Source: a virus. From it: a stretch of DNA of 20,952 nt. Location of the stretch: positions 1 to 20,952 of the IMG/VR virus record IMGVR_UViG_3300012920_000349; one strand, written 5' to 3'. The translations under genes were made by a program, and so were the position numbers. The notes under the pieces are model-generated. The model was not told the origin of the DNA and did no database searches. It was given only the letters and a program-made list of their open reading frames with translations. How positions within the stretch are numbered: the first letter of the stretch is position 1; each line of letters starts with the position of its first letter. Below, one piece after another: positions 909-20,898 of this stretch.

Positions 909-1061
909 ATGGCTACTAAATTCAAAAGCACTTTCCGAGAAACTAAAATAGGATCAAGGGGAAAGAAAACTTCTCAAGGAAACCATAGAAATATTAGGCT
1001 ATCTTCTATGAATAAGCACAAAAGAAGATCATTTAAAGCTTATAGGGGACAAGGCAGATGA
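909..1061 (+). CDS. Very basic 50-aa microprotein, coupled to the methyltransferase
   Basis: The ATG at 909-911 opens a 50-codon frame ending at TGA 1059-1061, with a classic ATGA overlap onto the methyltransferase start at 1058. Of 50 residues, 16 are Lys or Arg and only one (Glu11) is acidic. The C-terminus NKHKRRSFKAYRGQGR strongly suggests nucleic-acid or ribosome/RNA binding. The start has little Shine-Dalgarno. I have the impression that small basic proteins ending in YRGQGR recur in marine phages, but I cannot verify this here. Translational coupling with the methyltransferase is seen in the sequence; the function is not known. Confidence 0.65.
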   Translation: MATKFKSTFRETKIGSRGKKTSQGNHRNIRLSSMNKHKRRSFKAYRGQGR

Positions 1062-2062
1062 ATATTAAGATCATACAAGGAGATTGCACTAGATCATTAT
1101 TAAATCTAGATAATAAATCTATAGATACTATTATCACTTCTCCGCCTTACTATGCGCTTAGAAACTATAATGACGAAGAAGAACAGGTCGGCTTAGAAGC
1201 TACGCCTGAGTTATATATTCAAAAGCTAGTGTCTATCTTCAGGATTGCTAGAACTAAACTAAAAGACGATGGCACTGTATGGCTTAATTTAGGCGATAGC
1301 TATGCGGGTAGTAATGGTAATGGCTATAAACAAACTATCTCGAAATATAATCGATCTAATAATGCTAAAGAAAGCGTTTCCTTTAGAGATAAATATAAAA
1401 GACAAGATACAGGCTATAAGCCAAAAGATTTAATGTTAATTCCTTTTAGAGTAGCTTATGCGCTTCAGCAAGATGGTTGGTATTTGCGCCAGGATATAAT
1501 ATGGAATAAGCCTAATCCTATGCCTGAGAGTGTAAAAGATCGTTGCACTAAGGCTCACGAATACATATTTTTATTAAGCAAAAGCCAAAGATATTATTTT
1601 GATAGTGAAGCTATAAAAGAAGAAGCTGTCACTCAAGGACAGAAAAAGATTTCTCCTAGCGGTTGGGATATATCTAAAAAAGGAAGTCATGGCTCTTTCC
1701 ATAAAGAAGGCAGATCCACAGAACATTATGAGTTCGAGCAAAACGAGAAAAGAAATAAGAGATCTGTATGGACAGTCACTCCTAAAAGTTTTAAAGGCGC
1801 ACATTTTGCAACCTTTCCTGAAGATCTGATAGATCCCTGTGTTCTTGCCGGATCTAAAGAAGGCGGGACAGTTTTAGATATATTTGCGGGATCAGGAACT
1901 ACCGGAATAGTAGCTAATAACCATAATAGAAATGCTATTTTATTAGAGTTAAATAAAGAATATATCGAGATAGCTGAGAAAAGAATTTTAGATCAGGGAA
2001 GTTTATTTACTGATTTAGAGATAATATATGAAGAAAATGAAAATAAACGAAGAATTTCATAA
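1058..2062 (+). CDS. Site-specific DNA methyltransferase (N4-cytosine/N6-adenine, beta-type order)
   Basis: This is an S-adenosylmethionine-dependent amino-methyltransferase acting on phage or host DNA. The catalytic motif IV is T-S-P-P-Y at residues 27-31. The region DGTVWLNLGDSY is at 71-82. KPNPMPESVKDR (151-162) and HEYIFLLSKS (167-176) are family landmarks. HFATFPEDL (249-257) precedes the SAM-binding motif I, LDIFAGSGTTG (273-283). Catalytic motif first and FxGxG motif last is the beta-class order, with the target-recognition region around residues 85-240. SPPY is commonest in N4-cytosine enzymes but also occurs in N6-adenine ones, so the modified base and target are uncertain. At 334 aa it is full length. 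No restriction enzyme partner adjoins it, so it is probably an orphan protective or regulatory enzyme. Confidence 0.9.
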   Translation: MNIKIIQGDCTRSLLNLDNKSIDTIITSPPYYALRNYNDEEEQVGLEATPELYIQKLVSIFRIARTKLKDDGTVWLNLGDSYAGSNGNGYKQTISKYNRSNNAKESVSFRDKYKRQDTGYKPKDLMLIPFRVAYALQQDGWYLRQDIIWNKPNPMPESVKDRCTKAHEYIFLLSKSQRYYFDSEAIKEEAVTQGQKKISPSGWDISKKGSHGSFHKEGRSTEHYEFEQNEKRNKRSVWTVTPKSFKGAHFATFPEDLIDPCVLAGSKEGGTVLDIFAGSGTTGIVANNHNRNAILLELNKEYIEIAEKRILDQGSLFTDLEIIYEENENKRRIS

Positions 2063-10563: not shown

Positions 10564-10618
10564 TTATGTTGTTTTATGTTGTCTACTGTGCGATTATCGT
10601 TCATAGAGACAACAAAAG
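10563..10618. promoter_or_regulatory. Nested palindrome and tandem 10-bp repeat around the promoter
   Basis: TTTATGTTGT occurs twice in perfect tandem (10563-10572, 10573-10582). GTTGTCT (10578-10584) and AGACAAC (10607-10613) form a perfect inverted repeat. Its centre carries the palindrome CGATTATCG (10591-10599), which contains the -10 box. One arm is inside the promoter spacer and the other covers the start of transcription, a geometry typical of repressor or autoregulator sites. The likely binder is the HTH protein starting at 10563 (inference). Confidence 0.6.
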
Positions 10619-10622
10619 TCAA
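10593..10622 (-). promoter_or_regulatory. Strong sigma70-type promoter for the replication operon, minus strand
   Basis: TTGACT (10622-10617) and GATAAT (10598-10593) are each 5 of 6 to consensus and are 18 bp apart. The start of transcription would be near 10586, leaving a leader of about 22 nt before the HTH gene's ATG at 10563. It would drive the HTH, nuclease, ATPase, SSB-like and primase-helicase genes. Confidence 0.7.
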
Positions 10623-10626
10623 ATTT

Positions 10627-10881
10627 ATGATCCAAAAAAAAATGAGTAAAAAAGCTAGTGAAATTCAAATAGGCGGTGATCACTACAAAAAATTAAAAAT
10701 TTCTCCCTTAGATTTTATCCTTGCTAATAACCTTTCTTATTGTTTAGGGCAAGTCGTAAAATATATTTGTAGAGATAAAGATAATAAAATAGAAGATCTG
10801 TTAAAAGCCAAACACTATATTGATCTTGAACTAGAAAAAGTTCACAAAGTAGATAAGAAAGGGAAAAAGCTAGTTGATTAA
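10627..10881 (+). CDS. DUF3310-type protein
   Basis: The core ASEIQIGGDHYKKLKISPLD, then FILANNLSYCLGQVVKYICR and DLLKAKHYIDLELEK, is a clear match to the phage DUF3310 family (GGDHYxxxxIxPxxFI ... N ... G ... KYxxR ... DLxKAxxY). These proteins are often found in replication/nucleotide gene sets, but their biochemical role is unsettled. The frame is open from 10576, but a start there would leave no room for the divergent promoter, so I choose ATG 10627 (84 aa); ATG 10642 is also possible. It is divergent from the HTH gene and its 3' end overlaps the convergent integrase by 12 bp. Confidence 0.78.
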   Translation: MIQKKMSKKASEIQIGGDHYKKLKISPLDFILANNLSYCLGQVVKYICRDKDNKIEDLLKAKHYIDLELEKVHKVDKKGKKLVD

Positions 10882-11937
10882 ATAATTTCCTATCTTTTCT
10901 ATATCTTGATTTAAGGTTTCAGGCTTAGGTGTTTGATAGATCTGCATAGCTTTTATAGAAGTGTGTCCCATAAGCTCTCCCACCCTGATCATAGATATAC
11001 CCATATTCATACTCTGTGACCCAAAATTATGGCGCAAGTCATGAAATCTAAAGTTTCTGATACCTGACCTCTTAATTAGTTTTTTCCACTGTCTATCAGG
11101 GTTTTTAATCCCTAGAATAGTGTCTTTATCTCTAGGCAATCTTCTTATTAATTCCATAGCTTCTTCATTAAGATAAATAATTCTAGGATTATCTGTTTTG
11201 TCGTCTGTTTTATGTTCTTTTAGAATTATGGTGTTGCCTTTCAGATCTTCCCATTTAGCTTTTGCTAACTCTCCTTTTCTAGCGCCAGTAAGATAGGCTA
11301 GATAAATAAAAGCAGATCCATAAGGACTTTCTTTTCCTAACTTTCTTAACTCAGATAAAAATATTTTTCTCTCTTCTTCTGTGAAGTATCTTCTTCTAGA
11401 AGCTATTTTATTTTTAGTAATTTTATCTGCGGGATTTATCTTAGCCTGATTAAATTTGATAGCTAAGTTATACATAGCTTTAAGAATAGATAAAGAATGA
11501 TTAGCTGTACCTTTAGAATGAGAACTTAAATCTAAAAACCATTTATAAATAATATCAGCTTGTACCTTTATCATAAGCTGATCGCCAAAATTATTTTTTA
11601 TATTTCTTATATATAAGCTTTCTATTTCGCTTATGGTTTTTCTATTATTGTTTTCTAAACTAGGTTTATAAAATTCGTAAAAAAAATTATCTATCGTTAA
11701 AGAACTATCTCCTAATTTATGAAAGTTTTTTATTTCTTCTCTAACTCTATCTCTCATAACAGCTATAGATAAGCCTTCTCTACAGCTACCTATTTTTTTT
11801 AGCTTAGGATTTTTCTTTCCATCAATCCTGATACCCGCATAAAAAGTTTTATAAGTTGGCAGATTAGGATTGTCTTTTATATTTCTTTCTATAATGATCA
11901 GATTTCTTTCTTTATGATCCACAGTTCTTTTGTACAT
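10870..11937 (-). CDS. int: Tyrosine-recombinase integrase
   Basis: A 355-aa phage integrase catalysing site-specific insertion and excision at att sites. It has an N-terminal arm-binding-like domain (1-75, with YKTFYAGIRIDGKKNPKLKK), a SAM-like core-binding domain (about 80-170), and a catalytic domain with Arg220 (TGARKGEL), Lys243 (ILKEHK), His299 and Arg302 (FHDLRH), His325 (ELMGHTS) and the nucleophile Tyr334 (MQIY). All five standard residues plus the tyrosine are present, so it should be active. The ATG at 11937 has a strong AAGGAGAG site. The gene sits between the replication and virion modules with its own short upstream gap. No att core or tRNA fragment is recognisable nearby. Confidence 0.93.
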   Translation of the reverse strand: MYKRTVDHKERNLIIIERNIKDNPNLPTYKTFYAGIRIDGKKNPKLKKIGSCREGLSIAVMRDRVREEIKNFHKLGDSSLTIDNFFYEFYKPSLENNNRKTISEIESLYIRNIKNNFGDQLMIKVQADIIYKWFLDLSSHSKGTANHSLSILKAMYNLAIKFNQAKINPADKITKNKIASRRRYFTEEERKIFLSELRKLGKESPYGSAFIYLAYLTGARKGELAKAKWEDLKGNTIILKEHKTDDKTDNPRIIYLNEEAMELIRRLPRDKDTILGIKNPDRQWKKLIKRSGIRNFRFHDLRHNFGSQSMNMGISMIRVGELMGHTSIKAMQIYQTPKPETLNQDIEKIGNYLIN

Positions 11938-11982: not shown

Positions 11983-12414
11983 TTATGGGTGTACCTTTTC
12001 TAATGCACTATCTAACGATTTCACGCTATCTATTTCTTCTATTTGTTTATCGCTAAATCTTATGCTCTGCGCGGGATAAGAGCTTGATAAAAACACAACT
12101 TTATTCAAAGGCATAATGCAACAGGCATATATATCGACTTGTCCTTTTAGATAAGATCTGTTTTTTGTGAATGATCCGCGCCTGAAATCGAAGCGCCAGT
12201 TTGTTCTATAAGATTTACCTGTATGCTTAGATATAACTCTTTCTTTTTTAGAAGCTGTTTTGACCTGACATTTATAAAGCTTAGATTTGTATTCAAAAAT
12301 AATATCTGCGTGAGATGAATGTGGCAAGATAGTCACTGAGTCGGAAATCATAGAAAGAACTGAGCATACGAAATACTCCCCGCTTCTTCCTAACCTTTCA
12401 GTCGATCTTGTCAA
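11983..12414 (-). CDS. PD-(D/E)XK endonuclease-like protein, start probably frameshifted
   Basis: A 143-aa protein with the fold pattern of small PD-(D/E)XK nucleases and resolvases. It has a helix with Glu13 (GRSGEYFVCSVL), then HADIIFEYKSKLYKCQVKTA, giving the active-site pair Asp (ADII) and Gln-Val-Lys (QVK in the ExK position). Basic and aromatic residues follow (NWRFDFRRGSF). The only in-frame start near the N-terminus is TTG at 12414, which has no spaced Shine-Dalgarno. An ideal AAGGAG plus ATG at 12424 lies in another frame and hits TGA after 8 codons (MFKLDKID). A +1 shift there would join it smoothly to ERLGRSGEY. A mutation, sequencing error or programmed shift is therefore suspected. 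It lies between the integrase and virion genes. Confidence 0.65.
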   Translation of the reverse strand: MTRSTERLGRSGEYFVCSVLSMISDSVTILPHSSHADIIFEYKSKLYKCQVKTASKKERVISKHTGKSYRTNWRFDFRRGSFTKNRSYLKGQVDIYACCIMPLNKVVFLSSSYPAQSIRFSDKQIEEIDSVKSLDSALEKVHP

Positions 12415-14710: not shown

Positions 14711-15775
14711 TTATTCCTTAGTAACAAAAGTCATGTCTGCATCAGACTCAGGTTTATCCACTCCTGATAAATCATAAATATTGTCAATAGCTTTTAATTT
14801 TGCTTTCTTTTCTTGCGCTAGTCCTTTTTTATAATCTAATAAAAACTGTTTTACACCTTCAGGATCATTGGCACTTGCTAGTGATTGTGCGATTGCAACG
14901 AAGTCAAAGTCTGTTTTTGTGCCAGGTTGCATTTGTAAAGCTTTGTTAACTAAATTATTTTTCCAGTTTGTGAAAGCTCTAGAATTTCTAGACTCCTGAT
15001 CACTAGTCATTCCAAAATAGCCTTCATTTCTAAAATAGTCTCCGATACCTTCCCCAAAACCAAAGTCTAGTTCTTCGTTATCTATCATTTCTATAAAGCC
15101 ATCTATTTCTTCAGAAGTTGAGTCCATAGAAGCTAAGTTTGACTCATTTTCATTTATATCTTTGATAGCTGAATAACTTAATTCTTTAGGATCAGTCGCT
15201 TCTATTACAGGAAGATTAGGTTTAGCGCTTATGATATTTCCTTGATCATCTCTTTCAAAAATTAATTTTCCATCAGAAGATACTGTAGACATATCCACAT
15301 CACGATTTATTCTGTTAAATATAGACTGTTTTGATGATGCATCGCCACTTTCTAAAGCTAAAGAATTTAATAGATCATAATTTCCATCAGCGTAAGCTTG
15401 TGACATTCTTTGATTTAAGTCTAAAAGTCTATCTTGTTCTTCCTGTAATGCTCTTTGTTCTCTTAAATTATTCACATTACCTTGTATATCTTCGCCTTTA
15501 AAAGCAGATCCTAAAGCCATAAGCAGATCTGAAACACCTTTATTTTTAGAAGCACTTCTAGTTGCCATATATTTATCTAAATCTTCCTGAGTCATACTTC
15601 CAAACTTCATAACTCCTTTATCTCCCGCCGGTATAATATCCTGAGAGTTCATTCCACCTAGACGCGCCATAAGATTTCCAAATCTAGAAACATTAGGCAT
15701 TTCTACAGGCGCAATGGTCGGAGTTGTTGCGGGAATAGATGTGGAAGTGGTACTTCCTGTCTTACCAATACTCAT
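14711..15775 (-). CDS. Virion-associated protein, probable ejection protein, 354 aa
   Basis: A Ser/Thr/Pro-rich N-terminus (SIGKTGSTTSTSIPATTPTI) precedes helical and mixed regions. The segment with LQMQPGTKTDFDFVAIAQSL, then ASANDPEGVKQFLLDYKKGL (about residues 282-321), recurs in internal virion proteins of marine podophages as I recall them. It overlaps the upstream S74-tailed gene by ATGA and is followed 2 nt later by the 760-aa ejection-type gene. The set of three resembles the internal-core trio (gp14-gp15-gp16) of T7-like phages, by position only. Confidence 0.55.
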   Translation of the reverse strand: MSIGKTGSTTSTSIPATTPTIAPVEMPNVSRFGNLMARLGGMNSQDIIPAGDKGVMKFGSMTQEDLDKYMATRSASKNKGVSDLLMALGSAFKGEDIQGNVNNLREQRALQEEQDRLLDLNQRMSQAYADGNYDLLNSLALESGDASSKQSIFNRINRDVDMSTVSSDGKLIFERDDQGNIISAKPNLPVIEATDPKELSYSAIKDINENESNLASMDSTSEEIDGFIEMIDNEELDFGFGEGIGDYFRNEGYFGMTSDQESRNSRAFTNWKNNLVNKALQMQPGTKTDFDFVAIAQSLASANDPEGVKQFLLDYKKGLAQEKKAKLKAIDNIYDLSGVDKPESDADMTFVTKE

Positions 15776-17058
15776 CTTAATGCTCCATAATTAACTTTGA
15801 AGTACCCCGACTCATCTCTAATAACTGCATTAGGAATATGCATAACTTCTTGAGCTAAAACTCCAACTGTGTAGTCTTCAGGAATTTCTAAGTCTTTAGC
15901 TTTTTCATTCCATTCCCAAGAATAAATATTAATTCCATTAGCAAGTTTAAATAAGAATTTAATAGACTTTTTAAGTCTAGAGTCTGAGAATAAAGACGCT
16001 ACTTGTAATCCCGCGCCTAGAACATCTCCGAAGCCTGTTTTCTTCTGCGAAGATCCAGTTGTGCTAATTAAAGGAGATATTCCGCTTAATCCTGACTGTA
16101 AAACACCCAAGTTTCTAAGTCCTTGATTTTGTTCTCTATCAAATTCTCTTCTTATCGCGTCAAGTTCTGCCTGTTCATATTGGTTTCTAATCAGACCTTG
16201 TTGATTAAGTTGTTGTTGCATCTGATTTTGTTGTCCTAAAATAGTGTTAAAGATACCTTGATCTCTAGCTAACATCTGATTTCCAATATTAGCGTTAGCA
16301 ACATTCATAGCATTATCTAAATCCGCTTGTCTTAATAAAGACTGCTGATCAAACTGCTGATTTTGTAATCCCGCTTGTTGACCTAGCTGTGCGTTTTGTA
16401 GAGCAAAAGCGCTGTCCTGTCCCGCCATAAATTTATCTGCATCGAGCATTCTATTTATATCTTGACTAGCTAAATTAGAAGCAACATTAAAAGCGTCTTC
16501 TCTTTTCTTATCTACAAAATCTGCGACACTCTCGTTATAATTTTTATTTGTTTCTGCTTCTAATAAAGCACCTCGCGATCCACCGAATGCGCCACGACCA
16601 ATCTGAGCATCTTGATCTGACTGTAGCTGTTTTATTCTAGCTCTATTCAGATCTCTAACTCCCTGATCAATATTAATCTGAGTGTAGGGGTTCATATAAT
16701 TTCCAAGAACACCCATAATCTGCTGTGGAGAAACATCTCTTACACTCTGTCTATTAGCTTGTACTCCACTAAAATCATCAGCATTACCTACATTAGTTCT
16801 GCCGACATCAAATTTTTGTCCCACTAGTCCTTGCATACTTCCTAAAGGATCAAACTGATTTGCTCTGTTGCTACCTGTTATAGCATTACTGAATGCCATA
16901 TTCTGTGCTTGATTTGGGTCTGCAACCATATCTCCTCTAAAAGCCACAAAAGGCTTGTTGCTTTCAGCTTCTGATCTAGCATAGACTTTTTTATAAAAGT
17001 CTTCTTGATACTGTGGGACACTTGCTTCTGATTTTTGTACTGTTTTGCCTTTACTCAT
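15772..17058 (-). CDS. Virion protein with C-terminal S74 intramolecular chaperone
   Basis: A 428-aa protein. Residues 1-130 are polar. Residues 130-320 are Gln/Asn-rich helical sequence with repeats of the ANIGNQ/QLGQQAGLQNQQ type. The C-terminal 70 residues are an intramolecular chaperone (peptidase S74): FSDSRLKKSI (357-366), then YSWEWNE (379-385), GVLAQEV (399-405) and GYFKVNYGAL (418-427). In this family the chaperone trimerises the protein and cuts itself off at the serine of the SDxRLK motif (Ser358 or Ser360). A fibre-like or ejection-complex protein assembled as a trimer is likely. It overlaps the next gene by ATGA. Confidence 0.8.
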   Translation of the reverse strand: MSKGKTVQKSEASVPQYQEDFYKKVYARSEAESNKPFVAFRGDMVADPNQAQNMAFSNAITGSNRANQFDPLGSMQGLVGQKFDVGRTNVGNADDFSGVQANRQSVRDVSPQQIMGVLGNYMNPYTQINIDQGVRDLNRARIKQLQSDQDAQIGRGAFGGSRGALLEAETNKNYNESVADFVDKKREDAFNVASNLASQDINRMLDADKFMAGQDSAFALQNAQLGQQAGLQNQQFDQQSLLRQADLDNAMNVANANIGNQMLARDQGIFNTILGQQNQMQQQLNQQGLIRNQYEQAELDAIRREFDREQNQGLRNLGVLQSGLSGISPLISTTGSSQKKTGFGDVLGAGLQVASLFSDSRLKKSIKFLFKLANGINIYSWEWNEKAKDLEIPEDYTVGVLAQEVMHIPNAVIRDESGYFKVNYGALR

Positions 17059-17654: not shown

Positions 17655-17950
17655 CAATCTATTCCATATATTTCTTTATGCAAACGAGATACTTCGTTTT
17701 CTAAATAATTAATTTTTTCGTTTTGTTTTACATCTAAAGGCAGAACTCCGCCATTTTCCCATTCTCTTTGCCATTGAGTATGCTCTTTAATATCTTGTTT
17801 CATAGAAGATACTTGATTTTCTAAAGTAGAAATCTGACCTGTAATAGTCACATAGGCATAGGTAAATATAGCTATTGCTGACATCAGCTGAATTAAATAA
17901 CTTAAATTAAAAGTTAAATTAGATTTTTCAGAAATAGCTTTATCAACCAT
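17654..17950 (-). CDS. Membrane-anchored coiled-coil protein, 98 aa
   Basis: Residues 13-36 are hydrophobic (LTFNLSYLIQLMSAIAIFTY then AYVT), one membrane span near the N-terminus. A heptad-rich region follows (QISTLENQVSSMKQDI) and a second helix (KINYLENEVSRLHKEI) after a Gly/Pro break at GGVLPLD. This is the layout of phage holin-accessory/spanin-like or antiholin proteins. No endolysin gene adjoins it, so lysis function is only a suggestion. The TAATG junction with the upstream tail gene and the TGATG with the next gene show tight coupling. Confidence 0.6.
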   Translation of the reverse strand: MVDKAISEKSNLTFNLSYLIQLMSAIAIFTYAYVTITGQISTLENQVSSMKQDIKEHTQWQREWENGGVLPLDVKQNEKINYLENEVSRLHKEIYGID

Positions 17951-19446
17951 TACCTTCTACCTCTAGCCTTAACATCTATTCTTATGTTTCCTACTTTGAA
18001 ATCCTGAGTGGTATCGCCTTCAACTTTTAAATTAACCTGTCTAGCAGAAAATCTGCAGTCCTGATAACCACTTTCGTTAAAAGTAAAACTTCCAAAATCT
18101 TCTTCATTACCCAAAGGTGTTTGTTTGCCTTTAAAAGATATTGTGACGCCGGGTTTTGTCGTGCTTTCGCTGTCAGGAATTATTTTATTAACCTGAGCTA
18201 GTCTATCTCCCTGAGCTATTTCTATAGCGCCACTTGTAGCAAAAGGTTTTCTGTTGCCTAAATTTAAAGATGAAGATAATAAACCACTTTCGTGTTCGTA
18301 TACTATGCCATCGGAACTACAAGCCACAGGATAGTCTAGGACTCCCTGATCTAACCAAACAGATCTGTCTAAATTTCCTATACTCCACACATTATCCACA
18401 TAGTTCCAAATAACATATTTATTAGGAACTTTTGACTCTCCACTAGGAAAAAACCACCATATTTCTGTGAATAGCTGATTATGACCACCGCAGGAAGTTG
18501 CTCTATAAGGATAATTTATGTTGTCAAAAACATAGTCGTGAACATCAGAAGGAATTTTCCTAACCTGTCCATCATAAATATAAAAAGAATTATCTCCCAT
18601 CCAAGCTACAAAATTACCTGTAGATACTATTGATCGCATACTACTTGTTCTGCAGTTAGTACCCGCTTCCTGTATTCCATAAAGCAAAGGCGCACCTGAA
18701 TAATAGATTTTCTGCAAACCTATATCTGTAAAAACTAAAATTTCAGATCCATACCTGACTCCACCCAAAACATTACCACCTGTTGTCACAGTCAGATCTC
18801 CCGCAGTATTTGTTGTAGCGGGTGTCCAAACTGTTGGCGCTTCTCTAGAACTCCACCTTATTTGTTTTTTGTCGCTATTATTACCAAAACAAAAAATATG
18901 TCTTTCGCTTGATACTAATATTCCATTTACTCCTGTTGGAGAATTAGAAATTTGAGTAGCTAAAGCAGAAGGAGAAGAAGGTTGCCACTGATAAACTTTT
19001 CCATCAGAAGCAGAACAGATGATTAAATTTTCTCCAAAGTTATCAAAAGAAATAGGCTTAGTATCAAAGGCTAAACCCGACTGCGATCTAGCATCTCCAT
19101 AAGTTTCTCGACCATAAAGGTATGCGCCATAACCCAAAGGACTTGCCTGTGTGTCATCTACATAGCCTGTTGGAGTTATGTTGTACCACTGATTATCAAA
19201 TAAAACATAAATCTTAGCTCTAGTTCCTACAGCTAAAACAGGTTTAGAATTATTAGTGGTGTAAGCAAAAGCTGAAATAGGAGTGCCATCTAAAGCTGTT
19301 TGTTTAATTTTTTTCCAACCGCCTATATTAGTTAAAAATCCATTCTCAAATCTAACAAGATCTGCATCAATCCAATTACCTTTATTTTGGTAGTCAGTAC
19401 CATTAGTTCTGATCCCCGCTTTTATGTCTAAAGGTAAAAAAGCCAT
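17950..19446 (-). CDS. Tail nozzle/stopper-like virion protein, 498 aa
   Basis: The N-terminus (FLPLDIKAGIRTNGTDYQNK, then NWIDADLVRFENGFLTNIGGWKKI) is the usual opening of podophage head-completion/tail nozzle proteins (T7 gp12 / P22 gp10-type). The body is repetitive beta-strand sequence with several W/G-rich turns, such as VWSIGNLDRSVWLDQG and WMGDNSFYIYDGQVRKIP. This fits a beta-propeller. It would sit in the short tail that passes DNA. The assignment rests on the overall pattern and the position among virion genes. No Shine-Dalgarno is obvious beyond a GGAG about 10 nt before the ATG at 19446. Confidence 0.6.
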   Translation of the reverse strand: MAFLPLDIKAGIRTNGTDYQNKGNWIDADLVRFENGFLTNIGGWKKIKQTALDGTPISAFAYTTNNSKPVLAVGTRAKIYVLFDNQWYNITPTGYVDDTQASPLGYGAYLYGRETYGDARSQSGLAFDTKPISFDNFGENLIICSASDGKVYQWQPSSPSALATQISNSPTGVNGILVSSERHIFCFGNNSDKKQIRWSSREAPTVWTPATTNTAGDLTVTTGGNVLGGVRYGSEILVFTDIGLQKIYYSGAPLLYGIQEAGTNCRTSSMRSIVSTGNFVAWMGDNSFYIYDGQVRKIPSDVHDYVFDNINYPYRATSCGGHNQLFTEIWWFFPSGESKVPNKYVIWNYVDNVWSIGNLDRSVWLDQGVLDYPVACSSDGIVYEHESGLLSSSLNLGNRKPFATSGAIEIAQGDRLAQVNKIIPDSESTTKPGVTISFKGKQTPLGNEEDFGSFTFNESGYQDCRFSARQVNLKVEGDTTQDFKVGNIRIDVKARGRR

Positions 19447-19447
19447 T

Positions 19448-20200
19448 TTATGCAGTCTCCATTTTTTTATAGCTTTCTAGAAGCTCATACCAATAAGGCT
19501 TTATACTTTCCCATACAGGAAAATCTTTTATATTTAATTCTTTTCTAACATCTTCAAAAGGTTTATTTAAATGTTCTCGCCAATCAATAGTCATAAACCA
19601 TTGAGTTTTTCTGCCATTTAAATAAGCTTCTTTTATCAATCTAATAACACTAAAAAAAGGCATGTATTTTATTCTGAATAATAGCGATCCTTTTATAGCC
19701 TTTTTGCCAAAAGAATTTTTAAAAGCCATAAAAACACTAGCCAGGAGAATATAAAAAAAACTGTATCTAAAACCTTTTGCAATAGTAAAAGCTAAAACTG
19801 AAACTTCTGCTAAAGGTGTGGAGTCTAATTTATTAAGACAATGAATTATGTCGTGTTCATTGAGTGTGCCTTTCATATAAGCTATGTCTTTTTTGCGTTT
19901 AGTTTTTGAAATGTTTAAATTCTTTTTAAACAGATCCTCTTTATTTTCTTTCCAAAATTTTTTTAATTCGCTTCCAAAAGTTCCTTTTTTATATCTGCCT
20001 TTTAAAACTTCTTCTCTTAAATCGCCTTGCTTATAAAATTTATTTGCATAGGGATGACATTTGAATTTCTTTTTAAGCTTCACATCGCAATTTCTGTCAA
20101 GCTCATCGACCATTTCCATAATTAATGTTAGATCAGCATTAATATGACTTCTTCCCGAAGCATAAGCTTTTAAAAACTTTATTCCTTTTAAGATCTGCAT
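19448..20200 (-). CDS. coq4: Coq4-like protein (ubiquinone biosynthesis family)
   Basis: A 250-aa protein with a clear Coq4 signature. DIAYMKGTLNEHDIIH (105-120) gives His116-Asp117-x2-His120, and exactly 11 residues later Glu132, the HDxxHx11E metal site of the family. The helix after it (VSVLAFTIAKGFRYS) and the C-terminal DWREHLNKPFEDVRKELNI (206-224) match the Coq4 pattern W-x2-x-L-x-P-x3-V-R-x2-L. In cells Coq4 supports a late ring-modifying step (C1 oxidative decarboxylation) of ubiquinone synthesis. Here it lies inside the virion operon, 13 nt overlapped with an unknown gene and 1 nt ahead of the tail gene. It is either an auxiliary metabolic gene or a protein of this fold reused by the phage. 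Confidence 0.75.
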   Translation of the reverse strand: MQILKGIKFLKAYASGRSHINADLTLIMEMVDELDRNCDVKLKKKFKCHPYANKFYKQGDLREEVLKGRYKKGTFGSELKKFWKENKEDLFKKNLNISKTKRKKDIAYMKGTLNEHDIIHCLNKLDSTPLAEVSVLAFTIAKGFRYSFFYILLASVFMAFKNSFGKKAIKGSLLFRIKYMPFFSVIRLIKEAYLNGRKTQWFMTIDWREHLNKPFEDVRKELNIKDFPVWESIKPYWYELLESYKKMETA

Positions 20201-20898
20201 ATCATCACGACACGACAGACTTTGTCGCTAACATTTTTAATAAAACATTTTTCGCTAGATAATTTTTTGCAGTCATACTGTTCAAAGTTATATTTTTTTT
20301 CTTCTCCTATAACATCAGGGGAAGGAACAGTGACTTCACATTTATTGCCGACTAGCAAATAGTTTATGTTTCCAAATTTCTGAGTTTCTACTGTTTGATT
20401 AGGCTTTATATCGACATTATAAAATTCAAAACCATAATTATTTTGTAAACAGCAAATAATAATAGTGCCATCTTCTATAGCTTTTAAACTGGCTTTGTTA
20501 GTAGAAAGCTCATAATCTGCTGATCTTTTCTGCCAATCTTCTACATAACCGCCATAGTCAATGTCAAAACCATAAGAATTATCTGTCACGACTTCTGTAG
20601 AATGAGTGTCTTCAGGATTTTGTCTATTTAGCTCTACTATTTTATCTACATCTCTCTGAGAAATATTATCGCTTTCATCAAATTCATAACGAACACTTAC
20701 TTTGCCACCCATAAATAAATAATTAGTAAGAGATTTATTTATTTTGTAATCTTCTAAATATTGAATTTTGTCAAAATTAGGTTGTTCCTGTATTTCTTCT
20801 CTAGAAATTTCTGATCCAATATTTCCAATAACAACAGAAAGTTGAAATTCATTTTCAATGTTTACAGTCTTTATTCCTTCAAAAGTAAATTTAATCAT
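20188..20898 (-). CDS. Hypothetical beta-rich virion-operon protein, 236 aa
   Basis: Acidic, beta-strand-rich protein without a recognised domain. The N-terminal strands (MIKFTFEGIKTV) are followed by a polar middle with TDNSYGFDIDYGGYVEDW. The C-terminal half (GTIIICCLQNNYGFEFYNVD then KCEVTVPSPD) looks like a jelly-roll or beta-sandwich. Eight cysteines are present (CC near residue 150 and five others near the C-terminus). It precedes Coq4-like with a 13-nt overlap and has a GAGG box about 12 nt before its ATG. A decoration or tail-adaptor role is only a positional guess. Confidence 0.5.
   Translation of the reverse strand: MIKFTFEGIKTVNIENEFQLSVVIGNIGSEISREEIQEQPNFDKIQYLEDYKINKSLTNYLFMGGKVSVRYEFDESDNISQRDVDKIVELNRQNPEDTHSTEVVTDNSYGFDIDYGGYVEDWQKRSADYELSTNKASLKAIEDGTIIICCLQNNYGFEFYNVDIKPNQTVETQKFGNINYLLVGNKCEVTVPSPDVIGEEKKYNFEQYDCKKLSSEKCFIKNVSDKVCRVVMICRS

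Follow-up and report, generated by a model that had tools for sequence, protein, structure and literature searches.

Phages carry a gene of the Coq4 family, and they carry it together with a second gene, orf236, whose product is predicted to adopt a bicupin-like fold. In our judgment, which is not a computed value, it is close to certain that the 250-aa ORF described here is a Coq4-family protein and very probable that orf236-coq4 is a mobile phage cassette. We hold it an evenly balanced proposition that the two proteins are late-expressed cargo of this cassette, with a metal-dependent prenyl-lipid enzyme that most likely acts on a ubiquinone precursor. New here are a bicupin-like partner that is always present, movement of the cassette among types of phage, and a connection to SAR11-type phages; we found no literature report of a phage Coq4. 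The window, meaning the whole stretch of DNA analyzed, is the linear IMG/VR virus record IMGVR_UViG_3300012920_000349 (20,952 bases, 34% GC over its full length). Its relevant features are the following:

20188..20898, minus strand: ORF236, the cassette partner, predicted bicupin-like; 236 aa, overlapping coq4 by 13 nt
19448..20200, minus strand: coq4-like gene; 250 aa, ATG start, assigned by Pfam PF05019 and the fold model
17950..19446, minus strand: virion structural/P22 gp10-like stabilization protein (phrog_3287, E 1.3e-69; tblastn to annotated phage stabilization proteins)
15772..17058, minus strand: DNA-ejection-type protein with a C-terminal S74 chaperone domain (phrog_4287, E 8.5e-20; PF13884, E 5.2e-7)
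10870..11937, minus strand: tyrosine integrase, as in a temperate phage (tblastn to phage integrases)

The first-pass annotation had placed the gene inside a late virion block, and the neighborhood agrees. Window coq4 is co-oriented between orf236 upstream and the phrog_3287 stabilization gene downstream, and 1 nt separates its stop codon from the ATG of this P22 gp10-like virion protein. The overlapping ORFs suggest read-through instead of a dedicated promoter or terminator, and the gene overlap would be consistent with late co-transcription and co-expression of the cassette. In a related 37.7-kb contig (L005), the order runs coat protein, gp4-like protein, S74 tail fiber, small fiber, 88-aa ORF, ORF236, Coq4, and stabilization protein. 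Inspection of the ORFs of the window and of L005/G388, together with Pfam searches of ten window proteins, revealed no recognizable second ubiquinone gene. Integrases (PF00589) are also present in related near-complete contigs. A gene for a PD-(D/E)XK-like nuclease (phrog_5018; 11983-12414, minus strand) adjoins the window integrase, and homologous-looking ORFs lie near the integrase in two related contigs (L210 and L211). By eye, a small ORF (10576-10881, plus strand) has a DUF3310-like pattern of the GGDHYKKL...PLDFI type, which recurs next to the integrase in related phages, and an ORF at 1058-2062 (plus strand, opposite to the late genes) resembles a DNA methyltransferase with a TSPPYYALR motif.

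Assignment to the Coq4 family, proposed in the first-pass annotation, was borne out by profile search. The window protein matched PF05019 with 33.8 bits (E 2.8e-8) against a curated gathering cut-off of 22.9 bits, with residues 70-227 aligned to positions 81-220 of the 221-position profile. Each of the 10 relatives in an initial set matched the same family, and the most divergent subfamilies still scored above the cut-off (31.8 bits for L200 and 25.6 bits for L236). Thirty other IMG/VR contigs carry a phage coq4, with identities to the window ranging from 94% down to 34%. Identity to bacterial homologues is about 18-24%, and a profile of phage Coq4 proteins retrieved cellular Coq4s with E values down to 2.8e-13 among the 385 alphaproteobacteria searched.

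The phage proteins form a type of their own. A scan of cellular genomes (with A1) found no phage-type homologue, and the phage-protein profile (A3) recovered only ordinary divergent Coq4s from the 385 alphaproteobacteria. Conversely, no Coq4 was found in 50,697 phage records, including phages with homologous virion proteins, or in PHROGs, and four queries (P0001, L236 Coq4, L156 ORF236, and L236 ORF236) returned no relative from a cultured phage. The canonical cellular pattern HD-[L/I/V]-[F/Y/W-type]-H..G......GE had no match in viral contigs. Two pattern hits in viral contigs were set aside, one (L146) not being Coq4-like and the other (L141) being a cell-like Coq4 that clustered in the tree with a copy from a Cupriavidus plasmid.

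The HDxxHx11E metal motif noted at first reading is intact in the window protein (H116-D117-I-I-H120-x11-E132; coordinates 19805-19855), and the C-terminal P...VR.ELNI pattern is likewise there. Every relative that spans the motif retains the four metal ligands, including Coq4s at 34-40% identity (L191 ends before the motif and is outside this count), which rules out ligand loss even for divergent members. The residues around the ligands differ from those of cellular proteins. The T-G that follows the second ligand histidine in cellular Coq4s is replaced by N-[K/N/D/R] in the phage family, where the HxxTG(Y/F) of most aligned cellular members gives way to HCxN[KNR]LD or HF[LF]N[DN]YD. Purifying selection acts on close coq4 pairs: dN/dS was 0.04-0.27 in 16 of the 18 examined, with one further pair having a dN of 0 and the last a dN/dS of 0.61 at a dS of only 0.12.

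Structure prediction pointed the same way as the sequence. The Coq4 model (pLDDT 83, pTM 0.82) had confident Foldseek matches in the PDB only to 6e12 and 3msq (probability 1.0, E 3e-5 to 1e-4, TM 0.55-0.67). These are Nostoc Alr8543 and a putative ubiquinone biosynthesis protein of Nostoc punctiforme, and both share the ligand spacing of the phage protein. The 6e12 structure holds oleate and Mg, and the records of the two cyanobacterial proteins do not establish their function. The alignment used for folding (A5) contained cellular Coq4s, so the predicted fold is not fully independent of sequence and supports the assignment without independently proving it. Taken with the Pfam match and the conservation, the fold rules out an unrelated family bearing a chance motif. 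A 66-row tree, which carries long-branch and composition warnings, groups the phage Coq4s in a single clade (SH-aLRT 98); the stem of this clade measures 1.9 substitutions per site, and the tree resolves no cellular sister for it. Given so long and isolated a stem, the function of the phage proteins may have shifted.

The partner gene, absent from the first-pass annotation, is always present. Wherever sequence upstream of coq4 is available, ORF236 occupies it: in the window and in 27 of 27 IMG/VR contigs; the other 3 of the 30 are truncated on that side. The ORF236 profile, used by itself, retrieved 23 loci, every one of them (23/23) with coq4 directly downstream, and four more contigs (L001, L231, L235, and L236) have a full or partial ORF236 upstream of coq4. 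The overlap between orf236 and coq4 is 4, 10, or 13 nt at the ten loci measured; in L235 and L236 the genes lie a few nucleotides apart. ORF236 had no confident sequence match in Pfam, PHROG, or the PDB. Its model (pLDDT 89) matched bicupins in Foldseek with probability 1.0 at low TM scores (up to 0.48), and the protein is thus predicted to be bicupin-like. The resemblance to oxalate decarboxylase OxdC and other bicupins lies in the predicted double beta-barrel, whereas sequence identity is about 8-9%. Across the ORF236 family alignment (A4), no histidine is invariant, which argues against a classical cupin metal site.

The pair was found in at least four phage backgrounds, and alignments between contigs delimit it sharply. 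Between L143 and L156, the alignment covers the pair at 86% nucleotide identity, bordered by the start of ORF236 and the stop of coq4, together with a fiber fragment and little else. For L142 and L156, the common DNA is the pair, at 87.7%, and a 77-nt piece of the fiber region. L142 and L143 have more in common upstream, with 94.6% identity from fiber to cassette in longer loci of the same contigs (L203/L195). Between L235, which is P22/HTVC106P-like, and L236, which is T7-like, the shared block comprises a 112-aa ORF, ORF236, coq4, and a 90-aa ORF at 86%, in addition to short fiber pieces. The cassette has a GC content of 24-31%, compared with 34-39% in the rest. Exchange is not confined to the outer borders: identity between L198 and L200 is 81-99% as far as ORF236 but about 60% from the start of coq4 onward, with the breakpoint (L200:2940/L198:3426) at the ORF236/coq4 junction and the divergence running on into the stabilization gene. 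Recombination can therefore also fall between the two genes, and strict co-adaptation between a particular Coq4 and a single ORF236 is not necessary. Among the carriers, L156 contains one ORF longer than 2,900 aa (L156:3-8774) with an AlkB/2OG-oxygenase-like stretch by eye; part of this ORF has weak similarity to one Aeromonas phage.

Phage morons and other mobile cargo cassettes are typically low-GC inserts with sharp borders and variable presence, common to unrelated phages. The orf236-coq4 cassette resembles them in each of these respects, but unlike them, it reads as part of the late block with overlapping ORFs. In different kinds of phage it adjoins fiber and lysis genes, and insertion near such genes accounts for its place among virion genes, which is consequently not evidence for a virion role. 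The suggestion in the first-pass annotation that a position among tail genes favors lipid binding during DNA entry is accordingly weak, the gene being half of a mobile, low-GC, cargo-like cassette.

What the cassette does is best approached from the characterized members of the family. Animal COQ4 is a Zn-dependent C1 decarboxylase in which the HDxxHx11E ligands form the Zn site, and mutants of these ligands lose C1 decarboxylase activity (PMC7615680); human COQ4 has been described as an oxidative decarboxylase (PMC11495197). Phage Coq4 shares with COQ4/Coq4 of coenzyme Q biosynthesis the PF05019 match, the fold, the metal motif, a hydrophobic segment, and the C-terminal pattern. It differs in its long isolated branch, the replaced T-G, and a Pfam match that begins at profile position 81, as well as in being phage-borne and bicupin-paired, and its activity is a prediction. 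By analogy, phage Coq4 is probably a metal-dependent enzyme, and we are fairly confident of that, as a matter of judgment and not of computation; a ubiquinone precursor as its substrate is a more tentative proposal of the same kind, and one that we place somewhat short of even. The protein would be membrane-associated, with Zn as the metal by analogy; its hydrophobic cavity would hold a polyprenyl lipid of the host, on whose head group the enzyme would act. The most likely single substrate would be the prenylated 4-hydroxybenzoate precursor of ubiquinone, undergoing C1 decarboxylation, such that host quinone supply would be kept or redirected late in infection. ORF236 would provide a second component, perhaps one that binds a ligand.

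Simple transfer of function is weakened by the replaced T-G, by the high divergence, and by where other homologues occur. Homologues of Coq4 occur in cyanobacteria, Actinomycetota, Myxococcota, and Acidobacteriota, groups that are not known to make ubiquinone. A Sphingobium plasmid homologue lies in a catabolic-looking cluster with P450, transporter, and acyl-CoA dehydrogenase genes. On two sphingomonad plasmids (L015 and L016), Coq4-family genes sit amid P450, acyl-CoA dehydrogenase, and TonB receptor genes, and in Novosphingobium a second Coq4 gene is nearby. The context on sphingomonad plasmids suggests non-ubiquinone roles.

These occurrences bear on the possibility that the phage protein is a Coq4-type metalloenzyme acting on a different host lipid or on an aromatic or isoprenoid compound, which we consider doubtful. 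The cyanobacterial, actinomycetotal, and myxococcal homologues presumably have non-ubiquinone substrates, some alphaproteobacteria have several Coq4 paralogues per genome, the Sphingobium homologue has the clustered neighbors just described, and the residues near the metal site diverge in the phage clade. Counting against this reading, no substrate is known for any of these bacterial homologues, and the chemistry demonstrated for the family in the cited work is that of ubiquinone C1 decarboxylation (PMC7615680, PMC11495197).

Reuse of the Coq4 fold as a structural or entry part, whether as a virion protein or as a lipid-binding protein for membrane docking whose metal site is structural or binds a head group, appears unlikely. 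The cassette is always beside fiber or other virion/lysis genes, follows the tail-fiber genes in most contigs with upstream sequence, and in the window stands a single nucleotide from its neighbor; Nostoc Alr8543 was also crystallized with oleate bound. Against this, Coq4 is missing from the phage records searched, homologous-virion phages among them, and so is not essential to the virion; movement of the cassette is not tied to that of the virion backbone, and the catalytic-type ligands are invariant. It is improbable that the two proteins serve adsorption or host range as accessories traveling with the tail-fiber module, for instance in fiber-tip assembly or receptor-lipid modification: the succession of fiber, small GAISLN-type fiber, 88/112-aa ORF, ORF236, and Coq4 recurs in P22-like and T7-like phages, and cupin-like beta folds such as that predicted for ORF236 occur in some phage proteins, but beyond orf236-coq4, L143 and L156 share only short fiber pieces at the DNA level, and the near-identical L198 and L200 share fibers and ORF236 yet carry very different Coq4s.

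The cassette carriers are probably marine phages of alphaproteobacteria, SAR11 included. The terminase of L236 is 70-72% identical to those of Pelagibacter phages of the HTVC019P type, and this cassette carrier therefore probably infects SAR11. In three near-complete contigs of the window type, a complete tRNA-Lys(TTT) gene lies beside the integrase (L211:659-734, L212:636-711, and L213:3343-3418; G389-G391); the three genes differ from one another in the acceptor and T arms and are likely attachment sites. The best full-length match, which at 84% is too distant to prove the host of the window phage, is in an alphaproteobacterial order with genomes around 1.2 Mb, spanning about 1.0-1.5 Mb, which we infer to be Pelagibacterales; L217, a locus from the genome that anchors this order (G101; loci L217 and L226), has 29% GC. 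A pattern scan for the tRNA-Lys gave no hit among 369 genomes from the class to which the Pseudomonadales genome L106 belongs.

In this candidate order, Coq4 was found in none of 117 sampled genomes and UbiD in none of 30 (genome completeness not being established), compared with Coq4 in 33 of 385 genomes across the class. The A3 search of the order is a weak negative, no genome there being known to match. On these samples, a Coq4 brought by a phage would not be redundant with an enzyme already in such hosts. The order counts cover Coq4 and UbiD; other decarboxylases, such as UbiN, occur in alphaproteobacteria (PMC10626278). A more specific scenario, which we offer as speculative and rather unlikely to hold in full, is that in marine phages, including those of SAR11, a mobile, cofactor-poor metal decarboxylase of the Coq4 type, with its bicupin, supplies the C1 step of ubiquinone synthesis or rewires the quinone/isoprenoid pool in hosts lacking Coq4 and UbiD, so that respiration late in infection is kept or changed.

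A virus-borne gene of quinone metabolism has a precedent in ubiG of Baltic Sea viruses (PMC9301287), which is likewise a viral gene assigned to ubiquinone synthesis but encodes a different enzyme for a different step. Should quinone precursors prove to be the substrate of the phage Coq4, respiration in abundant ocean bacteria would come under the control of their phages through a step new to phages, and candidate hosts without Coq4 and UbiD would make an effect on quinones easy to read. Even with another substrate, the always-paired mobile cassette would be a compact system for studying the function of bacterial Coq4 homologues. The pairing and the mobility make phage control of host quinones, or of related lipids, a testable proposition.
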